DNA of 64,000 nucleotides, taken from assembly GCA_001310415.1 (NCBI GenBank), contig BAXE01000001.1, forward strand, positions 310,001 to 374,000, in the 5' to 3' direction. Under the pieces are notes generated by a model that saw only the letters and a program-made list of their open reading frames with translations, was not told the origin of the DNA and did no database searches. Shown here piece after piece: positions 39,601 to 48,084 of the stretch. A program made the translations under genes and the position numbers. Position 1 is the first letter of the stretch, and each line of letters begins with the position of its first letter. Source of the stretch: Enterovibrio sp. JCM 19048. GTDB taxonomy: Bacteria; Pseudomonadota; Gammaproteobacteria; Enterobacterales; Vibrionaceae.

Positions 39601-40309
39601 TCAGGTCGCTTGAATGTAGCGCCTTTCCGGGCGACCAACACTGCCGTAATTTACCTGCGCTTCGAGTTCCTGGGTGCTGACCATGTATTCGAGATACCTT
39701 CTTGCCGTGGTGCGGCTTGCTCCAATTAATGCACCGACTTCTTCTGCATTGAACGATTCGGTAGAGCCGGAGAACACCGAGCGGATTTTATCCAGCGTGA
39801 TGCCGTCGATACCTTTTGGCAGGCGGGTGATGTTGGGCTGGGGTGTGTCTGGTGCAGGCGTGTTGCCCGTTACGCGCTGGGGGAGCAGCGTATCGACATC
39901 AGTTTGAGCAAGGTTTTCCATCGCGTGGAGCTTTTCCAAATGGGCGGTATATTGCCCAATCACTTCCTGCAGACGCTCAAACACCAGCGGTTTTAGAATG
40001 TAATAGAACACGCCGCCACGCAGCGCGTCGCGCAGGGTATCCACTTCTTTTGCCGCTGTGATGAGGATAACGTCGGTGGCGCTGTTATTGGCGCGCAACT
40101 TACGCAGCAGATCGAGCCTGTGCCGTTGGGGAAATGATTGTCCAGAAGCAAGAGTTCAGGTTTGAACACGTCAACGAGATCTTCGGCATCTTCCAATGTG
40201 TGGCGATGCCAACCAGTTCGACGCCGTCGATACGTTCCAGAAAGCGTTTCTGTATTTCTGCAATTTGCACATCATCTTCAGCGATGACCACGCGGATCTT
40301 TTCAGTCAT
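39601..40309 (-). CDS. CitB/DpiA/DcuR-family response regulator (2 frameshifts)
   Basis: About 236 residues. The receiver domain starts KIRVVIAEDDVQIAEIQKRFLE, with phospho-acceptor Asp in PELLLLDNHFPNGTG and the Lys in ILKPLVFERLQ; the C-terminal helix-turn-helix is VGALIGASRTTARRYLEYMV, the CitB/DcuR type. Missing bases near 40198 (GIAHTLEDAED) and 40115 (TGLDLLRKLRAN). It is the cytoplasmic partner of the kinase immediately upstream on the same strand and divergent from tctCBA, so it most likely activates tricarboxylate uptake genes. Confidence 0.9.
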
Positions 40310-40357
40310 AGATACAGCTGACTCCTTGCTTCTCTCTTAATTCTATATTGCTCTAAG

Positions 40358-41969
40358 CTAGCTTGCTGAAATGTCAGCCTTCGGGATGTAGACGGTAAAC
40401 CGGCTGCCGAGTTGGTCACCCGGCTCCAGCGTGACTGTTCCGCCCATTTTCTGCAGCAGTTTGATGACCAGATGCAGTCCGTAACCGTGTCCTTCGCCGC
40501 TTTTACTGGTGACGCCTTTTTGGAAAATACGGGCCTGATCCTGCTCCGACACTCCTTCGCCTTCGTCTTCAATTTCAAAGATCAGGTCGTTACCGAGGTC
40601 GGTCATCGAGAGCCGTACTTCTTTGTGTTTGTTGTTAAGTGTTGCTTCCAATGCATTGTCGATCAGATTGCCGAGGATACTCACTAGCTCTTCCCGCGCG
40701 ATGTGATCGGGGATTTCTTTCATGCTGCTTTCTGGGTCAATTTCGAGATTCAGCCAAGCTCTTTGGCACGGTTATATTTACCGAGCAGGCAACCGGCAAG
40801 GATAGGATCGGGCACGGCTTCCACCATCAATTGAATGAGTGCTTGGTGGCTTTGTGTTTCCCGCCCAATCAAAGCGAGTGCTTCATCGGTTGCACCAATC
40901 TGGATAAGTCCGGCGATGGTATGCAGCTTGTTGGAATACTCGTGGGACTGGCTGCGCAGGGTATCGGCATATTGTTGGATTTGAGATAGCCGCTTACTCA
41001 CCGCATCCAGTTCATCCTTGCGGCGAAAACTGGAAACCACGCCGGTGATCTTGTTGTCCTGTACCAAGGGAAGGCGGTTTACTATTAGGTTTCTGTCCTG
41101 CAGCCAGACGTCTTTATCGAACTGTGGTTTTCCGGAACGCAGCACTTCCATCAAGCGGCTGTCTGGCAGCACCTCTTCTATAGGGCGATCTGTCAGGCGG
41201 CTGTTGGCATCCAACCCCAGCGTGTCTACCGCAGCTTTGTTAAAGGTGGTGATACGGCCTTCGCTGTTTACCGCAATGATCCCTTCGCGAACGGATTCCA
41301 GCGTTGCATTCCGCTCCTGAAACAGTCGGCCGATTTGCTCAGGCTCAAGACCGAAAATGGCTTTTTGAAATGGCTGGCGAACCATAGCCCTGTCAGCACA
41401 CTCAGCACAAAACTGATGACGATAACGACGTAAAGCGTATCCCGGTATCGATCAATGGTTTCTTCAACAGACGTCAGCATAAAACCAACTGACACTATGC
41501 CCATCACCTCTTCGCTACTGCGGTCGAAGATAGGGGCTTTGCCCCGAACCGATGCCCCAAGGCTTCCCACTGCTTTCTGGATATAGGGCTTGCCATAGAG
41601 CAGCGCAGGCTCGTTGCGGTCGCCATCGTCGTCGTACATTGGCTTTCCAATGCGTTGCCAGGAAGGGTGGGCAAGCCGGATGCCATTGCGGTCACCAATC
41701 ACGACAAAACGGGCATCGTTGACCGAAGCAAGATCGAGGGTGAGGGGCTGTAGCAATTCGCTGTCGCGCTGTTCAACCGCTTCAATCACTTCAGGAATCG
41801 AGGCAATGGTTTTGGCGACGTGCAATGCACGCAGGCCTATTTGTTCATCCAGTGATTGTGTCAGGTAGGTAAGGGCAAAATAGCCGATAAATCCGGTTTG
41901 TAGCAGCGCCATCATGCCCAGAATGAGCATCATACGGGTTTTCAGCTTGAGTGCGCGAAGGGAAAGCAT
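40358..41969 (-). CDS. CitA/DpiB/DcuS-family sensor histidine kinase (2 frameshifts)
   Basis: About 537 residues. Two membrane segments (residues 10-35 and about 175-195) enclose a periplasmic PAS-like (CitAP) domain with ASVNDARFVVIGDRNGIRLAHP. A cytoplasmic PAS follows (SVREGIIAVNSEGRITTFNKAA), then the phospho-acceptor His in LRSQSHEYSNKLHTIAGL, and an ATPase domain with GNLIDNALEA and GHGYGLHLV. Breaks: near 41362 (HFKKAIFGLEPEQ) and near 40752 (AKELGLNLEID). CitA senses citrate directly in the periplasm; whether this one binds citrate or another tricarboxylate is inference. Confidence 0.9.
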
Positions 41970-42119
41970 GGGTAGTCAGCACCTTTTAGTTACAACCATC
42001 GAACAGGCGCAGTGGCCGCGTTTATGTCCAGGCAGTTTCAGGTTACCTGAGTCTATCAATCTATCTTATTGAAATGGTGATTCTTTGTAGTGTGTCACGC
42101 AAGTGAACAATATGCACAA

Positions 42120-42146
42120 AATGTTTTTTAAAGTTTAAAAAACATT
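42120..42146. promoter_or_regulatory. 27-bp palindrome, candidate operator of the tct genes
   Basis: AATGTTTTTTAAA - G - TTTAAAAAACATT is perfect over 27 bases and lies 158 bp upstream of tctC, in the 334-bp gap facing the kinase gene. AT-rich targets are known for CitB-type regulators, so this is a good candidate binding site for the adjacent response regulator. No gene is seen in this gap. Confidence 0.6.
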
Positions 42147-42303
42147 AAACACACAAGCTTTCCAGATATTCATCCTGCCAATAGGTTTGAAAGCGTAGGG
42201 CAAAGAAACCGAATAGGTGCATTGCACTGAAACGCCAGGTTGAGCGTGTAGTTCGGAATAAAACTATCTCGTCCAATGGACGGCACGACATGAGGAAAAA
42301 CCT

Positions 42304-43287
42304 ATGATTTCAACACTGTTCGCCAAAAAACGTTCGCTCGTTGCAGCATTGGCGCTCACTTCAGCACTGAGTGCAGGCATGGCCAATGCGGCCGTTGAGG
42401 AAATTCACTTCCTGGTACCTGGTGGTGCTGGTGGTGGTTGGGATGGCACCGCGCGTGGTACCGGTGAAGCACTGTCAAAAGCAGGTCTTGTCGAGACGGT
42501 TTCTTACGAAAACATGTCTGGCGGTGGTGGCGGTAAAGCCATTGCGCACCTGATTGAAGTGGCGGATCAGGCAGATAACACATTGATGGTGAACTCAACC
42601 CCTATTGTTATTCGCTCTTTGTCGAAAGTTTTCCCTCAATCGTTCCGCGACCTGACGCCGATTGCGGCCACCATCGGTGATTACGCTGCCTTTGTGGTGC
42701 CGACAGATTCCAAATACCAAAACTTTACGCAGTTGATGGATGACTACAAAGCCAATCCTCGTTCTGTGTCTGTGGCTGGCGGTTCATCCCGTGGCGGCAT
42801 GGACCACCTTGTTGCAGCAATGGCTTTTAAAGCAGCAGGCGGTGATCCAAAGCGCGTGAAATATGTCGCTTACGATGCAGGTGGTAAAGCAATGGCAGGC
42901 ATGTTGTCGGGTGAAACCCAGGTGTTGTCTACCGGTTTCTCTGAAGCGCTGGCGCTGAAAAACGCCGGTGAGGTACGCATCCTTGCGATGACTGGCCCTG
43001 AGCGTTCACCTGCGGCGGCGGATGTCCCAACCCTGAAAGAGCTGGGCTATAACGCAGAGTTCACCAACTGGCGCGGCTTCTTTGGTGCACCTGGGTTGTC
43101 GGATGAACAAGCGAACGAGTATGCGGCTGTATTGGAAGAAATGTACACCACGGATGCATGGAAAGAAGTGCGTGACCGCAATGGCTGGACTGAAATCTAC
43201 AAGCCACGTGCAGAGTTCGTGACTTTCCTTGAAGGTCAGGAGCAGGAAGTAGGCGAGCTGATGAAAGAGCTGGGCTTCCTCAAATAA
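42304..43287 (+). CDS. tctC: TctC, tricarboxylate-binding periplasmic protein (Bug family)
   Basis: Intact, 327 residues. Signal peptide ends near AGMANA; VEEIHFLVPGGAGGGWDGTARG contains the Bug-family Gly-rich loop, and SVSVAGGSSRGGMDHLVAAM and VKYVAYDAGGKAMAGMLSGE follow. RBS GAGGAAA seven bases before the ATG. Periplasmic receptor of a tripartite tricarboxylate transporter; TctC of Salmonella binds citrate and tricarballylate. The gene is followed by three hairpins, consistent with higher expression than tctB and tctA. Confidence 0.93.
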   Translation: MISTLFAKKRSLVAALALTSALSAGMANAAVEEIHFLVPGGAGGGWDGTARGTGEALSKAGLVETVSYENMSGGGGGKAIAHLIEVADQADNTLMVNSTPIVIRSLSKVFPQSFRDLTPIAATIGDYAAFVVPTDSKYQNFTQLMDDYKANPRSVSVAGGSSRGGMDHLVAAMAFKAAGGDPKRVKYVAYDAGGKAMAGMLSGETQVLSTGFSEALALKNAGEVRILAMTGPERSPAAADVPTLKELGYNAEFTNWRGFFGAPGLSDEQANEYAAVLEEMYTTDAWKEVRDRNGWTEIYKPRAEFVTFLEGQEQEVGELMKELGFLK

Positions 43288-43298
43288 ATAAACAGACC

Positions 43299-43374
43299 GA
43301 GGGCTCATTTGAGCCCTCAATTGAAGCCAATGGAAAGGCTTCAACCGCGTAAACAAGACGGAATGTTCCGTCTT
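43299..43374 (+). promoter_or_regulatory. three consecutive hairpins between tctC and tctB
   Basis: Perfect arms: GAGGGCTC/GAGCCCTC (43299-43318), TTGAAGCC/GGCTTCAA (43321-43344) and AAGACGGAA/TTCCGTCTT (43355-43374, followed by CTTCT). They fill the 111-base gap and probably attenuate read-through or protect the 3' end of tctC mRNA. Confidence 0.7.
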
Positions 43375-43398
43375 CTTCTGTAGTTCAAGGAGTGTCAG

Positions 43399-43872
43399 AT
43401 GGTTGTCACTAAAGACCATATCGGTGGTCTCATATTTCTCTGTCTTTCAGTGGCATACGGGTACTACGCCCGTGTAATTCCCATGCTTCCCGGCGATGAG
43501 TACGAACCTTTTAATGCCCAGACTTTACCTATTGCGCTTTCATACATGGGCGGCGTACTCGGCATATTGATGCTGGTGACAGGACGGCGCGGTGCTGAAA
43601 GCAAACTCAACCTTGCGGGGTTGGACTTTGTTCTGGTTACCAAGCTGTTGGTGCTGATTGTTGCTTTTGCTTTTGCGTTGGAGTGGGTTGGCTTTCTGCT
43701 CTCCACCATTTTCTTTTTGGTTGGCGGTTACTGGATCCTCGGTGAGAGAAAACCAAAAACTTTGTTTATTGCCTCAGTGCCATTTGCGGTAGGCATCTGG
43801 TTCACGTTGGCAAAACTGCTGGATATCTATCTGGCACCGGGTCGTTTGTTTACCCAAGTGTTTGGAGGCTAA
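43399..43872 (+). CDS. tctB: TctB, small membrane subunit of tricarboxylate transporter
   Basis: Intact, 157 residues with four membrane segments: VTKDHIGGLIFLCLSVAYGYY, LPIALSYMGGVLGILMLV, LDFVLVTKLLVLIVAFAFALE with GFLLSTIFFLVGGY, and a last one before PGRLF. This is the standard TctB layout. RBS AAGGAG precedes the ATG. It ends five bases before the tctA start and is needed for the TctA channel. Confidence 0.92.
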   Translation: MVVTKDHIGGLIFLCLSVAYGYYARVIPMLPGDEYEPFNAQTLPIALSYMGGVLGILMLVTGRRGAESKLNLAGLDFVLVTKLLVLIVAFAFALEWVGFLLSTIFFLVGGYWILGERKPKTLFIASVPFAVGIWFTLAKLLDIYLAPGRLFTQVFGG

Positions 43873-43876
43873 GGCT

Positions 43877-45432
43877 ATGTGGGAAGGAATCGCAACAGGC
43901 TTAAGCACAGCGACAATGCCTTTTAACATCCTGATGGTTGTGGTTGGCTGTTTTGCCGGTACATTTATCGGCATGTTACCGGGTTTGGGGCCGATTTCAG
44001 CGGTCGCATTGATGATCCCGATTACTTACGGATTGGATCCTGCGTCAGGCATTATCCTGATGGCGGGTGTGTACTACGGAGCCGTTTTTGGTGGCTCAAC
44101 CTCTTCTATTCTGATCAACGCACCTGGGTGTTCAAGTACGGTCGTGACCGCGTTTGATGGCTATCCTATGGCGCAAAACCGTCAGGCAGGTAAAGCACTG
44201 GCGTTGGCGGCGTACTCCTCGTTTACTGGCGGTACGGTTGGCGCGATCATTCTGTTGTTTGCTGCACCAGCATTGGCGAAAGTCTCCCTGAGTTTCCAGT
44301 CGGCAGACTATTTCGCCTGATGATCCTTGGCTTGACGGCGGTATCGGCATTTGCCGGTAAAGGGCAAGTGCTGAAAGCGATGGCGATGACAGTTTTTGGC
44401 CTGATGATAGCGACCGTAGGGACGGATGTGATCACCGGCGCACCACGCTTTACGTTCAACAATATCGATTTGGTCGACGGTATCAGCTTCCTGCTGCTGG
44501 CAATGGCGACGTTTGCGCTGGCAGAAGTTGTCATGACAGTGCTCAAAGGCCAGCACAAGGAAGAAGAGCCTGACATGGACATGGCGGCGCTCGGCAGCAT
44601 GAAGCTTTCGAAAGAGGAAGTGAAAGAAGTGGCACCCACCATTGCCCGTTCTTCAGTGTTCGGATTCTTGGTTGGTGTTTTGCCTGGTGCCGGTGCGACC
44701 ATTGCCTCTTTCCTTGCATATGGTCTAGAGCGAAACCTCGCGCCAAAACGGCTGAAAGAGAAATTCGGTAAAGGGGCATTGCGTGGTCTGGCAGCGCCTG
44801 AGTCAGCAAACAATGCGGCATCTACCGGTTCATTTGTTCCGCTGCTGACGCTGGGTATTCCGGGCTCAGGCACCACGGCAATTATGCTTGGCGCGCTGAT
44901 CGCCTATGGCATCCAACCTGGCCCGCGCCTGTTTGTCGATAATCCGGATGTGTTCTGGTCGGTCATTATCTCCATGTACTTCGGTAACCTGGTGTTGCTG
45001 ATCCTGAACTTGCCGCTGATCCCTTACATCTCACGGTTGCTGGTGATCCCGCGTCCAATCCTTATCCCGCTGATTTTGTTCTTCTCCATCACGGGTGTGT
45101 ATCTGGTGAGCTTCAACACCTTTGATATCAATATGATGGTGATTATCACGATTGTGGCGATATTCCTGCGCTTGCTGGATTTCCCTATGGCGCCAATGCT
45201 ACTGGGCTTTATCCTTGGCGGGATCATGGAAAACAACCTTAGCCGCTCGATGACCATTTCAGACGGTAGCTTGAGCTTCCTGTGGGAGCGCCCGCTGACA
45301 CTGACCATTATGTCTATCTCCGTCTTTGTGCTTATTTTGCCGCTGCTTCGTGTGTTAGCAGAAAAAATGGGACTGGGTCGTAAAGCCAAACCGATGGAAA
45401 CCGGTGCAAGTGCTGACAGCGGCGAAGGTTAG
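43877..45432 (+). CDS. tctA: TctA, large permease subunit of tricarboxylate transporter (1 frameshift)
   Basis: About 518 residues, 11-12 membrane segments. It starts MWEGIATGLSTATMPFN and has GTFIGMLPGLGPISAVALMIPITY (the Gly-rich TctA motif GMLPGLGP), GGSTSSILINAPG, SADYFALMILGL at the repaired break, GVLPGAGATIASFLAYGLE and ESANNAASTGSFVPLLTLGIPGSG. One base is missing near 44317. RBS GGAGG at 43864. The fragments in two frames would each be non-functional, but the repaired product is normal. Confidence 0.93.
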
Positions 45433-45442
45433 GAGTGGGCGA

Positions 45443-46645
45443 ATGAGTAGGATGTTGTCTAATTTTCGCGTACTTGATTTAACCAATGTATTGGCAGGCC
45501 CGTTTGCCTGCCACCAACTTGCGCACATGGGGGCTGACGTCATTAAGGTGGAAGTTCCCGGTAGTGGGGATTTGGCTCGTCAGTTAGGCGCAGATCCAGA
45601 ACTGAATGCCCGGAAAATGGGTGTTTCTTTCCTGGCACAAAATACCGGGAAACGCTCTATAACTTTGAACCTGAAAGATCCGGAAGGCAAAGCCGCGCTT
45701 AAAGCACTGGTAAAAACCGCGGATGTGCTGGTGGAGAATTTTAGGCCGGGAGTAATGAAGCGGCTAGGGCTGGATTATGACGTACTGAAAGCGGAAAACC
45801 CGGCGCTGATTTACTGCGCGATTTCGGGCTATGGCGCGGAAGGGCCAATGAAAAACCTGCCTGCGTACGACCAGATCATCCAGGGCATGTCGGGCGTGAT
45901 GTCGATTACCGGCAGCGAACAAAGTGCGCCGCTGAGGGTAGGATATCCCATCGCCGATACGCTGGGCGGCATGACGGCAGCGTTTGCGATTTCCACGGCG
46001 TTGGCAGGTCGTTCACAAAGCGGTGAAGGCTGTTTTATCGATGTCTCTATGCTTGAGTCGACGCTCGCCACCATGGGTTGGGTAGTTTCCAATTATCTGA
46101 TTGCCGGGAAAACACCGGTACCGATGGGGAATGACAACTTTACGGCCAGCCCATCCGGCGCATTCAAAACTGGCGAAGGCCTTATTAACATTGCAGCGAA
46201 CAAGCAGGAGCAGTTTGAATCGGTTTGCGAGGTGATAGGAAAGCCTGAGCTTAAAACCGACGTTCGTTTTTCTGAAAGACAGGCTCGGCTGCAAAACCGT
46301 AAAGCGATGACGGAGATTCTTGAAGCGGCTTTTGCCTCTCATCCTGCTGAACATTGGGAAACTGTGCTGAATCAACACGGAGTGCCTGCCGGTCGCGTGA
46401 TGTCGGTACCTGAAGCGCTGGATCTTCCGCAGGTTAAGCAGAGGGAGTTTGAAGCAGTATTTGATGATGTAGACGGCGTTGAGCAACCGGTACATGTTGC
46501 CCGTCCGGGATTTCTGGTCGACGGAAAACGCCCGGAAGTGGGCTGTCCTCCGCCTGCACTGGGTGTAGATTCCAAAGCTATTCTTCATGACCTTGGTTAC
46601 AGCCATGCTGATATTGAACAACTGGCAGAGCGAGGTGTGATATGA
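45443..46645 (+). CDS. class III (CaiB/BaiF) CoA-transferase, candidate citrate CoA-transferase
   Basis: Intact, 400 residues from ATG 45443 (AGGAG seven bases upstream; the longer frame starts inside tctA). Family marks: RVLDLTNVLAGPFACHQLAHMGADVIKVE at the N-terminus (only DLTNVLAGPF cited as decisive), ENFRPGVMKRLGLDY, and the catalytic Asp in NLPAYDQIIQGMSG. Class III enzymes move CoA between carboxylic acids through Asp-CoA thioester and anhydride intermediates. Placed between tctA and a citryl-CoA-lyase-like gene (ATGA overlap with the latter), so its acceptor is probably the imported tricarboxylate. Substrate is inference. Confidence 0.85.
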   Translation: MSRMLSNFRVLDLTNVLAGPFACHQLAHMGADVIKVEVPGSGDLARQLGADPELNARKMGVSFLAQNTGKRSITLNLKDPEGKAALKALVKTADVLVENFRPGVMKRLGLDYDVLKAENPALIYCAISGYGAEGPMKNLPAYDQIIQGMSGVMSITGSEQSAPLRVGYPIADTLGGMTAAFAISTALAGRSQSGEGCFIDVSMLESTLATMGWVVSNYLIAGKTPVPMGNDNFTASPSGAFKTGEGLINIAANKQEQFESVCEVIGKPELKTDVRFSERQARLQNRKAMTEILEAAFASHPAEHWETVLNQHGVPAGRVMSVPEALDLPQVKQREFEAVFDDVDGVEQPVHVARPGFLVDGKRPEVGCPPPALGVDSKAILHDLGYSHADIEQLAERGVI

Positions 46646-47476
46646 GTATTCGTCGCCCGGATTCAGGGCCAGAAAAAGCGGTCGCTGATTGGTGGCGCAC
46701 TGAAATCATAGATATGCAGCCCGGAGAGATCAGCTATTTTGGCTACCCGATTGAATCCTTGATTGGCAATGTCAGTTTCACCCAAATGATTTGGCTGATG
46801 GTGCAGGGCGAGTTGCCTTCACCTGATAAGGCAAAGTTATTGGATGCGGCCTTGATGTCTGCCGTCGACCATGGCCCCCAGGCGCCAAGTATCGCCATCG
46901 CGCGTATGGCATCGACCTGTGGCGTCGGCTTAACAATGCGATGGCCTCAGCGGTAAACGTATTGGGCGATGTACATGGTGGAGCCGGTGAACAAGCCGTT
47001 TCGCTTTACCGGATGATTTATAACATCATGCAGGATGAGCAGCTTGACGTTGCCGCGGCAACCCAAAAGGGATTGGCATACCAACGGGAGCATTTCGGCA
47101 AATTTATCCCGGGTTTTGGTCACCGCTTCCATCCGGTTGATCCGCGTGCGCCGCGCTTGATGGAATTGGTTGAAAATGCAGTTGGCGAAGGCATTGTCGA
47201 AGGGCGTTATCTGGCGATTGGGCAGCAGGTTGAAAAGCAGCTTCTTGAGGATAAGGGAAAATCTATTCCCATGAACATTGATGGCGCGACCGCCGTTATC
47301 TATGCAGAGCTTGGTGTTCCTGCTGAACTGTCACGGGGATTGTTTTGCCTTTCACGCTCAGTCGGTATCCTCGCCCACGCCTGGGAGCAGACACAACAGG
47401 GAGGCCGCAACAAAGGCCCATTCCACGTGATTTACTGTGGACCTATGACGGCCCCCAGAAAAGAGAGCCTAACTAG
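46642..47476 (+). CDS. citryl-CoA lyase-like protein, short citrate-synthase family (2 frameshifts)
   Basis: About 278 residues, far shorter than citrate synthase (about 430) but right for stand-alone citryl-CoA lyases. Citrate-synthase-type catalytic residues remain: His in GDVHGGAGEQAV, His in PGFGHRFHPVDPRAP, Asp in MNIDGATAVIYAELG, and SVGILAHAWEQ near the end. Breaks: near 46937 (GVGLNNAMASAVN) and near 47430 (KGPFPRDLLWTYDGPQKREPN, stop at 47474-47476). As given the frame runs to 47543 through a terminator. Likely cleaves a citryl-CoA-type thioester to acetyl-CoA and oxaloacetate; coupling with the upstream CoA-transferase is by inference. Confidence 0.8.
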
Positions 47477-47502
47477 TCCACCAATTGGTGGGCTTATTTT
47501 TG
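47476..47502 (+). terminator. rho-independent terminator of the tct operon
   Basis: GTCCACCAATTGGTGGGC, a self-complementary stem, followed by TTATTTTTG. Confidence 0.75.
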
Positions 47503-47667
47503 GGTCTGCTATTGAACGCTGTTTTTTATTTTTGGTAGAGTGACCTTTACCGAAGGTTTTTTGTCTCTATGGCAAAGCGCGGAAGCAGTTTGATACATTT
47601 TGCTAACGTGTTTTGGATATAGAATTGTTAGACTGAAACGCACACAGCGTTGTTTAAAAGGAATGAG

Positions 47668-48084
47668 ATGATGAAGCTGATCATGCCCATATTGGTTTCA
47701 CTAATGCTTACCACGCCAGCATTGGCAACCGAAGAAGATAACAGCTGGGACAAAGCAAAAGAGTCAGCTGGCGAAGCTTGGGAGTCTGCCAAGGAAGCCG
47801 GTAAAAACGCCTGGGACGCGACAAAAGAAAAAAGCGAAAAGCTGATGAAAGATGCGGAAAAGGAAGGGGGCGATCTTTGGGACAGCGCCAAAGAGAAAAG
47901 CGCTGAACTTTGGGAGAAAGGCAAAGAGAAAGGCGGTGAGCTGGTGGATGAAGCCGAAAAGAAAGCCGAGGAGTACATGAAGCCTAAAGAAAAAGCGCCG
48001 GAATCTGATTTGCCAGTCGAGCCTGAAGCCACGCCGCAACCTGACAACAATCAAGGTGTCGGAAATTTTAATCAGTCTGCATGA
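47668..48084 (+). CDS. secreted LEA-like repeat protein
   Basis: Intact, 138 residues from ATG 47668 (AAGGA upstream). Signal peptide MMKLIMPILVSLMLTTPALA, then at least six imperfect 11-residue units of the type W(D/E)xAKExxxxA/K: SWDKAKESAGE, AWESAKEAGKN, AWDATKEKSEK, LWDSAKEKSAE, LWEKGKEKGGE. The tail is Pro/Asn-rich. The 11-mer pattern resembles group 3 LEA and apolipoprotein-like helices, which protect membranes or proteins during stress. Periplasmic by prediction; function inferred from repeat type only. Confidence 0.7.
   Translation: MMKLIMPILVSLMLTTPALATEEDNSWDKAKESAGEAWESAKEAGKNAWDATKEKSEKLMKDAEKEGGDLWDSAKEKSAELWEKGKEKGGELVDEAEKKAEEYMKPKEKAPESDLPVEPEATPQPDNNQGVGNFNQSA

Follow-up and report, generated by a model that had tools for sequence, protein, structure and literature searches.

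Classical bacterial citrate lyase consists of CitD, CitE and CitF and stands under CitA/CitB control. The tripartite tricarboxylate transporter (TTT) of Salmonella, TctCBA, is controlled by TctD-TctE, and citryl-CoA synthetase, which acts ahead of citryl-CoA lyase, uses ATP. In the reductive tricarboxylic acid (TCA) cycle system, citryl-CoA is made by the synthetase and then cleaved by that lyase (a passage of PMC9768450), and Salmonella TctC is described as the citrate-binding protein of TctCBA (a passage of PMC2864759). The locus dealt with here lies in a stretch of 64,000 nucleotides from the marine Vibrionaceae bacterium Enterovibrio sp. JCM 19048 (the window, 310001-374000 of its contig, in a genome of 5.27 Mb and 70 contigs), where a CitA/CitB-type pair on the minus strand faces genes for TctC, TctB, TctA, a class III CoA-transferase and a lyase on the plus strand. 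Sequence comparison suggests that it is probably a citrate sensing and uptake operon bearing an optional CoA-based citrate-cleavage cassette.

The likeness to described systems is partial in each case. Hydrogenobacter citryl-CoA lyase (6HXP) is of the same family as the product of the last gene, with a match over nearly the whole length, the same His, His and Asp, and the best fold match; where that system has a synthetase, however, a class III CoA-transferase here stands beside the lyase within an uptake operon. The citryl-CoA lyase module of ATP-citrate lyase has a homologous fold, but no fused or neighbouring ATP-dependent part was seen here. Classical CitDEF shares the kind of sensor pair and, if acetyl-CoA is the donor, the proposed net chemistry, and differs in its protein families and in not working on free CoA. 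CitF itself was found in none of 18 genomes of the genus, the present one (87.5% complete) included, with a positive E. coli control; the remark in the first-pass annotation that CitD, CitE and CitF were not to be seen thereby stands for CitF, CitD and CitE not having been searched for. With Salmonella TctCBA all three transporter families are shared, whereas regulation there is of the OmpR type and here a CitA/CitB-type pair is present, with the CoA-transferase and lyase genes downstream. Succinate-glutarate and succinyl-CoA:mesaconate CoA-transferases are among the nearest models of the transferase, far below their cut-offs.

In the proposed pathway the kinase would sense citrate and, via CitB, turn on tctCBA and the cassette; TctCBA would import citrate; the CoA-transferase would move CoA to citrate from succinyl-CoA, or from acetyl-CoA that is then regenerated; and the lyase would split citryl-CoA, yielding oxaloacetate and acetyl-CoA. 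If acetyl-CoA is the donor, the net conversion would be of citrate to oxaloacetate and acetate, equal to that by CitF and CitE, on free CoA rather than a CitD-bound prosthetic group and with the involvement of neither ATP nor aconitase. Oxaloacetate decarboxylase, whose beta subunit gene (oadB) is present, in split form, in the genome, could take the cleavage product onward. Of the chemistry envisaged at first pass, the lyase family, the partnership with a CoA-transferase, the CitA-like motif and the lack of CitF are borne out, and citrate as ligand, citryl-CoA formation and the identity of the donor have the standing of predictions from sequence.

A broader proposal, for which confidence falls slightly short of even, is that a class III citrate CoA-transferase and citryl-CoA lyase together form a widespread, unrecognised ATP-independent citrate lyase that would replace CitDEF and bypass aconitase, as a two-gene cassette plugging into TTT, TAXI-TRAP, DctP-TRAP or citMHS/DASS uptake and, once, provided with its own succinyl-CoA supply. 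If true, many Proteobacteria would have a citrate route hidden from annotation; the genes are already annotated as citryl-CoA lyase and CoA-transferase. Among the open-licence PMC papers examined no description was found of this combination as a citrate route, citryl-CoA lyase figuring there mainly within reductive TCA cycle work, with genome papers and papers on plants or lactic acid bacteria making up most of the other matches. The earlier impression was that the route is not well described in vibrios; the pair is not peculiar to vibrios, being Pseudomonadota-wide.

Gene order, lyase and CoA-transferase

Pfam and NCBIfam matches identify TctC, TctB, TctA, a class III CoA-transferase, a citrate-synthase-fold protein and a DpiA-like regulator, and recognise the kinase in an sCache_3_2 piece and an HATPase piece. 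Families and order agree with those of the first-pass annotation, and the genes and gene fragments are as follows.

39601..40098, minus strand: CitB/DpiA-type response regulator, C-terminal part, with the receiver end and HTH_64 (open reading frame, family scan)
Upstream of the 39601..40098 open reading frame in other frames, minus strand: CitB N-terminal part (235-residue ortholog aligned over three frames from 39607)
40358..40723, minus strand: CitA-type kinase, ATPase domain fragment (HATPase_c 8.3e-23, ortholog)
40750..41385, minus strand: CitA-type kinase, middle cytoplasmic fragment (541-residue ortholog over three frames)
41268..41969, minus strand: CitA-type kinase, membrane and periplasmic sensor fragment with CitA-like ligand motif (sCache_3_2, alignment)
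42304..43287, plus strand: tctC, periplasmic binding protein of 327 residues, open frame (open reading frame, family scan)
43399..43872, plus strand: tctB, small membrane subunit, open frame (open reading frame, family scan)
43862..45432, plus strand: tctA, large membrane subunit, split near 44320 (517-residue ortholog in frames 1 and 2)
45404..46645, plus strand: class III (CaiB/Frc) CoA-transferase, open frame (open reading frame, family scan)
46642..46956, plus strand: putative citryl-CoA lyase, N-terminal fragment of 104 residues (open reading frame, family scan)
46935..47476, plus strand: putative citryl-CoA lyase, C-terminal fragment, which carries the two His and the Asp (frame change near 47425, stop at 47474-47476)

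TctC, TctB and TctA are thus present together as a tripartite tricarboxylate transporter, of which TctA is split here and open in relatives. By orthology the CoA-transferase starts near 45443, and its stop overlaps the lyase ATG by four bases, in the window and in L062-L065.

Profiles and a structure model place the last gene in the citryl-CoA lyase family. With the NCBIfam equivalog for citryl-CoA lyase (NF004864/PRK06224, cut-off 261) its ortholog in Grimontia marina reaches 455 bits; the two pieces in the window, at 158.9 and 245.9 bits, each fall under that cut-off because the gene is split. Against solved structures, a profile from 18 relatives gives 239 bits with 6HXP, 113.5 bits with the best citrate synthase and 86.9 bits with the best 2-methylcitrate synthase. 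An AlphaFold2 model of a 281-residue ortholog, whose length agrees with the short chain of about 270 residues in this family (44 sequences; pLDDT 88.8, pTM 0.85), has 6HXP as its top Foldseek match (TM 0.74 by query, 0.81 by target), and among the 50 top structure matches rows 1-39 are citryl-CoA lyase or ATP-citrate lyase, with a 2-methylcitrate synthase at row 42. The two His and the Asp, described at first pass as kept, are all in the C-terminal fragment in the window and are invariant in 44/44 aligned relatives; their catalytic roles are presumed to carry over from citrate synthase. The nearest lyases with a named source are those of Grimontia marina, Grimontia celer and Enterovibrio.

One alternative is that the operon handles 2-methylcitrate, which would be activated by the CoA-transferase and then yield oxaloacetate and propionyl-CoA through the lyase; this is unlikely. 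The fold is indeed common to the lyase and 2-methylcitrate synthase, but a comparison with 2-methylcitrate enzymes, suggested with the first-pass annotation and since carried out, groups the lyase with citryl-CoA lyases (239 bits versus 113 for citrate synthase and 87 for methylcitrate synthases, and the match to 6HXP). A PrpC chain has about 375 residues; the ortholog, at 281 residues, yields 61.6 bits with the PrpC model PRK12351 (cut-off 550), where a true PrpC yields 648. Profile scores, model matches and chain length together rule out assignment as a citrate or 2-methylcitrate synthase. A search of the genome for the citrate-synthase family turns up, besides this lyase, one full-length citrate synthase and a split prpC, and nothing else. 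As the genome holds prpB, prpC and acnD elsewhere, some 120 kb away from the locus, the pair is not needed for methylcitrate. The flanking of the pair in Pectobacterium by citMHS and DASS symporters also argues against a 2-methylcitrate operon.

The CoA-transferase is matched over its full length by CoA_transf_3 (401.9 bits, profile 1-365 of 366). The class III Asp claimed for it, in the motif AYDQIIQG with its codon at 45869, is present in 80/80 aligned sequences, and is taken here to be the catalytic residue of this class. The alignment comprises the window, 78 of 80 loci and L026, with L096 and L120 omitted as having no CoA-transferase of at least 50% identity; the 80 loci are the best 80 of 553 confirmed places in the GTDB species collection, i.e. 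the closest relatives. The nearest NCBIfam models are succinate-glutarate at 298 bits (cut-off 750) and CoA:oxalate at 293 (522), and succinyl-CoA:mesaconate gives 246 (700); since all are so far below cut-off, the case for citrate as CoA acceptor rests on context.

Sensor, transporter and candidate ligands

The periplasmic part of the kinase is an sCache domain that aligns best with CitA-type structures and has the CitA citrate-contact residues, in an R-H-R-K motif. For Klebsiella pneumoniae CitA, the relevant passage of PMC3229521 gives no citrate binding for R66A and 1.8 mM for R107A, the response to citrate being lost or much reduced in these Ala mutants. Reading of the alignment indicates that the equivalents of R66 and R107 are kept in the window sensor and six relatives. 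Two residues past the second Arg, the window sensor and DpiB have a Lys where E. coli DcuS has Phe, and this Lys presumably takes part in citrate binding. The motif is CitA-like, and citrate is the predicted ligand.

A related arrangement brings 2-methylcitrate back into consideration. In G645, a genome of the same family (genus g12, presumed to be Vibrio), a tctCBA and CitAB-like set with the same sensor motif as that in the window stands beside prpB, prpC and acnD (L155 497-12047), and uptake of 2-methylcitrate by that set is possible. With the motif shared in such a setting, it is insufficient on its own against 2-methylcitrate.

The substrate may instead be some other tricarboxylate or hydroxy acid (tricarballylate, aconitate, hydroxycitrate or homocitrate), with citrate a mere analogue, which is judged quite unlikely. 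In its favor, comparison of TctC with solved structures yields distant relatives only, those in PDB including terephthalate-binding proteins, and the family is not confined to citrate; the pair is found with varied transporters and regulators and with a lactonase-like gene. However, citrate-synthase-type cleavage needs a 3-hydroxy-3-carboxy acid and neither tricarballylate nor aconitate has such a group, and the sensor motif is CitA-like.

Orthologs of TctC at 57% identity or more are present in 25 of 398 Pseudomonadota genomes sampled, and those lacking the lyase include eight of nine sampled g12 genomes. In G549 and G705 (other genomes of the class) a similar CitAB-TctCBA set occurs alone, without the pair. 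In G612 (L159) and G720 (L160) the genes opposite tctC encode, instead of CitAB, a regulator of the OmpR type and a 2CSK_N kinase (domains tested in G612), which we take to be a TctD/TctE-like pair; in G612 the CoA-transferase gene is behind tctA with the lyase gene about 212 kb distant. Given tct sets without the lyase in G645, G549 and G705, and lactonase genes near TRAP versions, the transporter perhaps takes up more than citrate, and analogues may be what other versions of the pair act on. TctC is rejected as a strict cassette marker, as 13/25 TctC genomes lack the lyase and six congeners lack the pair behind tct.

An optional cassette in the genus and beyond

Genome comparison indicates that the pair behind tctA is a cassette that can be present or absent, separable from the sensor-transporter part. 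In seven congeners CitB-CitA faces TctC-TctB-TctA-CoA-transferase-lyase in the same order, with all frames open in six and with citA and tctC also split in the seventh (G001). TctC is present in 14/18 genomes of the genus and the pair follows tctA in 8/14 of them. The six others (G003, G006, G010, G013, G016 and G017) share these sensor-transporter genes and most of the genes around them, the view in G017 extending 239 nt past tctA. No lyase over cut-off was found in G003, G006, G010, G013 or G017, and in G010 about 60 nt take the place of the G. marina sequence that begins at the tctA stop and runs about 110 nt beyond that of the lyase. The gene set and order of the combined module proposed at first pass are therefore borne out but its being a single unit is not, six congeners and G549 and G705 having the sensor-transporter part without the pair behind it. 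Because the pair is not behind tctA in 6/14 TctC genomes of the genus, the imported acid is presumably usable without CoA activation, as citrate is; the species lacking the cassette would then channel it into the ordinary TCA cycle, as would suit citrate. Grimontia and Enterovibrio relatives that do or do not carry the cassette at this site provide a natural comparison for its contribution.

Species with and without the pair are intermixed in a tct tree (some forks of which are weak). A lyase tree, which left out the split lyase of the window and that of G009, has the six tct-linked Grimontia/Enterovibrio lyases as one clade (support 100/99) and leaves the Photobacterium pair unplaced. G016 has a different version, in which the CoA-transferase and lyase genes have a TAXI-TRAP transporter on one side and an SMP-30-like gene on the other, together with an IclR regulator; its lyase is outside the clade, and separate acquisition is therefore likely. 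A common origin of the two cassette types within the genus is rejected on the same grounds. For the tct-linked type, the simplest account of the trees is one gain followed by about four losses, with several gains from close relatives also conceivable.

Beyond the genus, the lyase gene is immediately preceded on the same strand by a CoA-transferase gene of 50% identity or more in 76/80 loci, and of the four remaining loci L134 and L136 hold one nearby in another arrangement. In the 398-genome sample, with the lyase taken at E ≤ 1e-40 and the CoA-transferase ortholog at E ≤ 1e-110, the lyase is in 25 genomes (21 above cut-off) and the CoA-transferase in 21. They are together in 19, against about 1.3 expected if independent, kinship being uncorrected; in 15 of the 19, the present genome included, they are adjacent by coordinates compared by hand, and in G612, G628, G720 and G740 they are apart. 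The recurrence of the two genes as neighbours is more than chance.

Six of the 80 loci are from Vibrionaceae and the rest from other bacteria, nearly all Pseudomonadota, those outside being one Desulfuromonas record and three actinobacterial records. No lyase above cut-off was found in 19 sampled Vibrionaceae genomes of other genera; two Photobacterium species in the GTDB collection do, besides the genus itself, have a lyase locus. A class-level sample has the lyase over cut-off in 2/369 genomes. An invention within Vibrionaceae is rejected, as the pair is spread over Pseudomonadota with most of the 80 loci elsewhere.

The company kept by the pair varies. In 60/80 loci at least one gene from the transporter families tried is found within 6 kb (none in 20/80, some loci being cut by contig ends). 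A TctC-like gene is within that distance in 55/80, at only 23-35% identity in many, TctA-like genes in 27/80, IclR in 46/80, CitA/CitB in 7/80, TAXI in 5/80 and DctM in 3/80. Family tests bear out the names given to the TAXI, TRAP, IclR, prp and dihydrolipoyl dehydrogenase genes. An SMP-30/gluconolactonase gene is present in four cassettes of the TAXI- or DctP-TRAP kind (L098, L105, L108 and L114), a single DctP-TRAP version among them, and in G016, which suggests that some versions act on a lactone-derived citrate analogue. The corresponding feature is:

L026 9412-10380: SMP-30/gluconolactonase-like gene by a TRAP-type cassette (family test)

The flanks of the pair in Pectobacterium aroidearum hold a gene for a citMHS citrate:proton symporter (527 bits) and one for a DASS symporter, behind which come genes for 2-oxoglutarate dehydrogenase E1, E2 and E3, each above cut-off (L079 9917-16919). 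Of the two E1 genes in that genome (1565 and 1145 bits) the lower-scoring one adjoins the pair. With E1-E2-E3 of a second 2-oxoglutarate dehydrogenase so placed, succinyl-CoA fits as the donor, and it is possible that the enzyme is a dedicated succinyl-CoA source for the CoA-transferase. Cupriavidus metallidurans CH34 has a citryl-CoA lyase homologue (72.6% identity, NC_007974.2 718647-719441); a passage in its genome paper states that the combined action of citryl-CoA synthetase and lyase is not encoded (PMC2864759).

That the pair balances CoA esters, or runs synthetically from oxaloacetate and acetyl-CoA to citryl-CoA, instead of being a route for an imported acid, is very unlikely. Both CoA transfer and citryl-CoA cleavage are reversible in principle and the tct operon is without the pair in six congeners, which would suit such a role, but the pair ends an uptake operon with overlapping frames, and a transporter-family gene is close by in the 60/80 loci mentioned, at low identity in some.

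Several observations weigh against a citrate operon with a citrate-cleaving cassette. The CoA-transferase is under every characterised equivalog cut-off (best, 298 of 750 bits), and in the superposition of the lyase model on 6HXP the domains fit poorly (root mean square deviation 10.4 A over 262 columns). Both sensor Arg residues are also in DcuS, leaving the Lys alone to separate CitA-like from DcuS-like; the G705 sensor has Arg at the Lys position, and the G645 sensor carries the full R-H-R-K motif beside prpB-prpC-acnD. TctC orthologs are without the lyase in 13/25 genomes and, at the thresholds used, 2/21 genomes with the CoA-transferase lack the lyase (G682 and G732) and 6/25 with the lyase lack the CoA-transferase (G427, G495, G502, G508, G640 and G676). 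The SMP-30/gluconolactonase gene beside TRAP-linked cassettes is superfluous for citrate, and the second 2-oxoglutarate dehydrogenase is in only 1/80 loci. Four genes in the window are broken as sequenced, and among open-licence PMC papers none was found that reports activity of the pair.

Broken frames and minor features

The module had been called complete. As sequenced it is not intact, CitA, CitB, TctA and the lyase (4/7 genes) being frameshifted in the window: CitA is spread over three open reading frames and TctA over two, and CitB is visible only as a C-terminal open reading frame of 165 residues. Nor is the lyase the single frame of 278 residues that had been annotated, since its open reading frames of 104 and 200 residues are out of frame with each other and the frame shifts once more near 47425, close to the C-terminus, and 46642-47476 is 835 nt, which is no multiple of three.

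A decaying locus, in which this strain would have pseudogenes for four of the seven genes and a module that has ceased to work, might be supposed from the distribution of CitB, CitA, TctA and the lyase each over two or three frames and from the lack of the pair in several congeners. It is, however, highly improbable. In a comparison with orthologs from congener G008 (five 20-kb pieces; open reading frames of at least 150 residues, at least 70% covered, at least 60% identity), 15/28 window genes with a G008 ortholog occupy more than one frame, 4/7 in the locus and 11/21 outside it, all within 1215-54898 of the window; prpC and oadB, elsewhere in the genome, are likewise split. With split genes equally common outside, sequence or assembly error is the likely cause of the breaks in the locus, the assembly seeming rich in indel errors, and decay confined to the locus is rejected.

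A pattern scan gives one further feature directly after the lyase.

47475..47494, plus strand: terminator-like hairpin, then a T run (pattern scan)

Terminator-like sites in the region number 12 (shuffle mean 10.0, sd 3.3), near expectation, and promoter-like sites 2 (shuffle mean 7.0), i.e. below chance level; with such counts, sites of either kind carry little weight. Further 3′, at 47650-48084 of the window, a small protein is encoded with an apparent signal peptide and repeats of Lys, Glu, Ala and Trp, as judged by eye. In congeners, whether or not they have the cassette, open reading frames resembling it, again by eye, occur directly 3′ of the locus.

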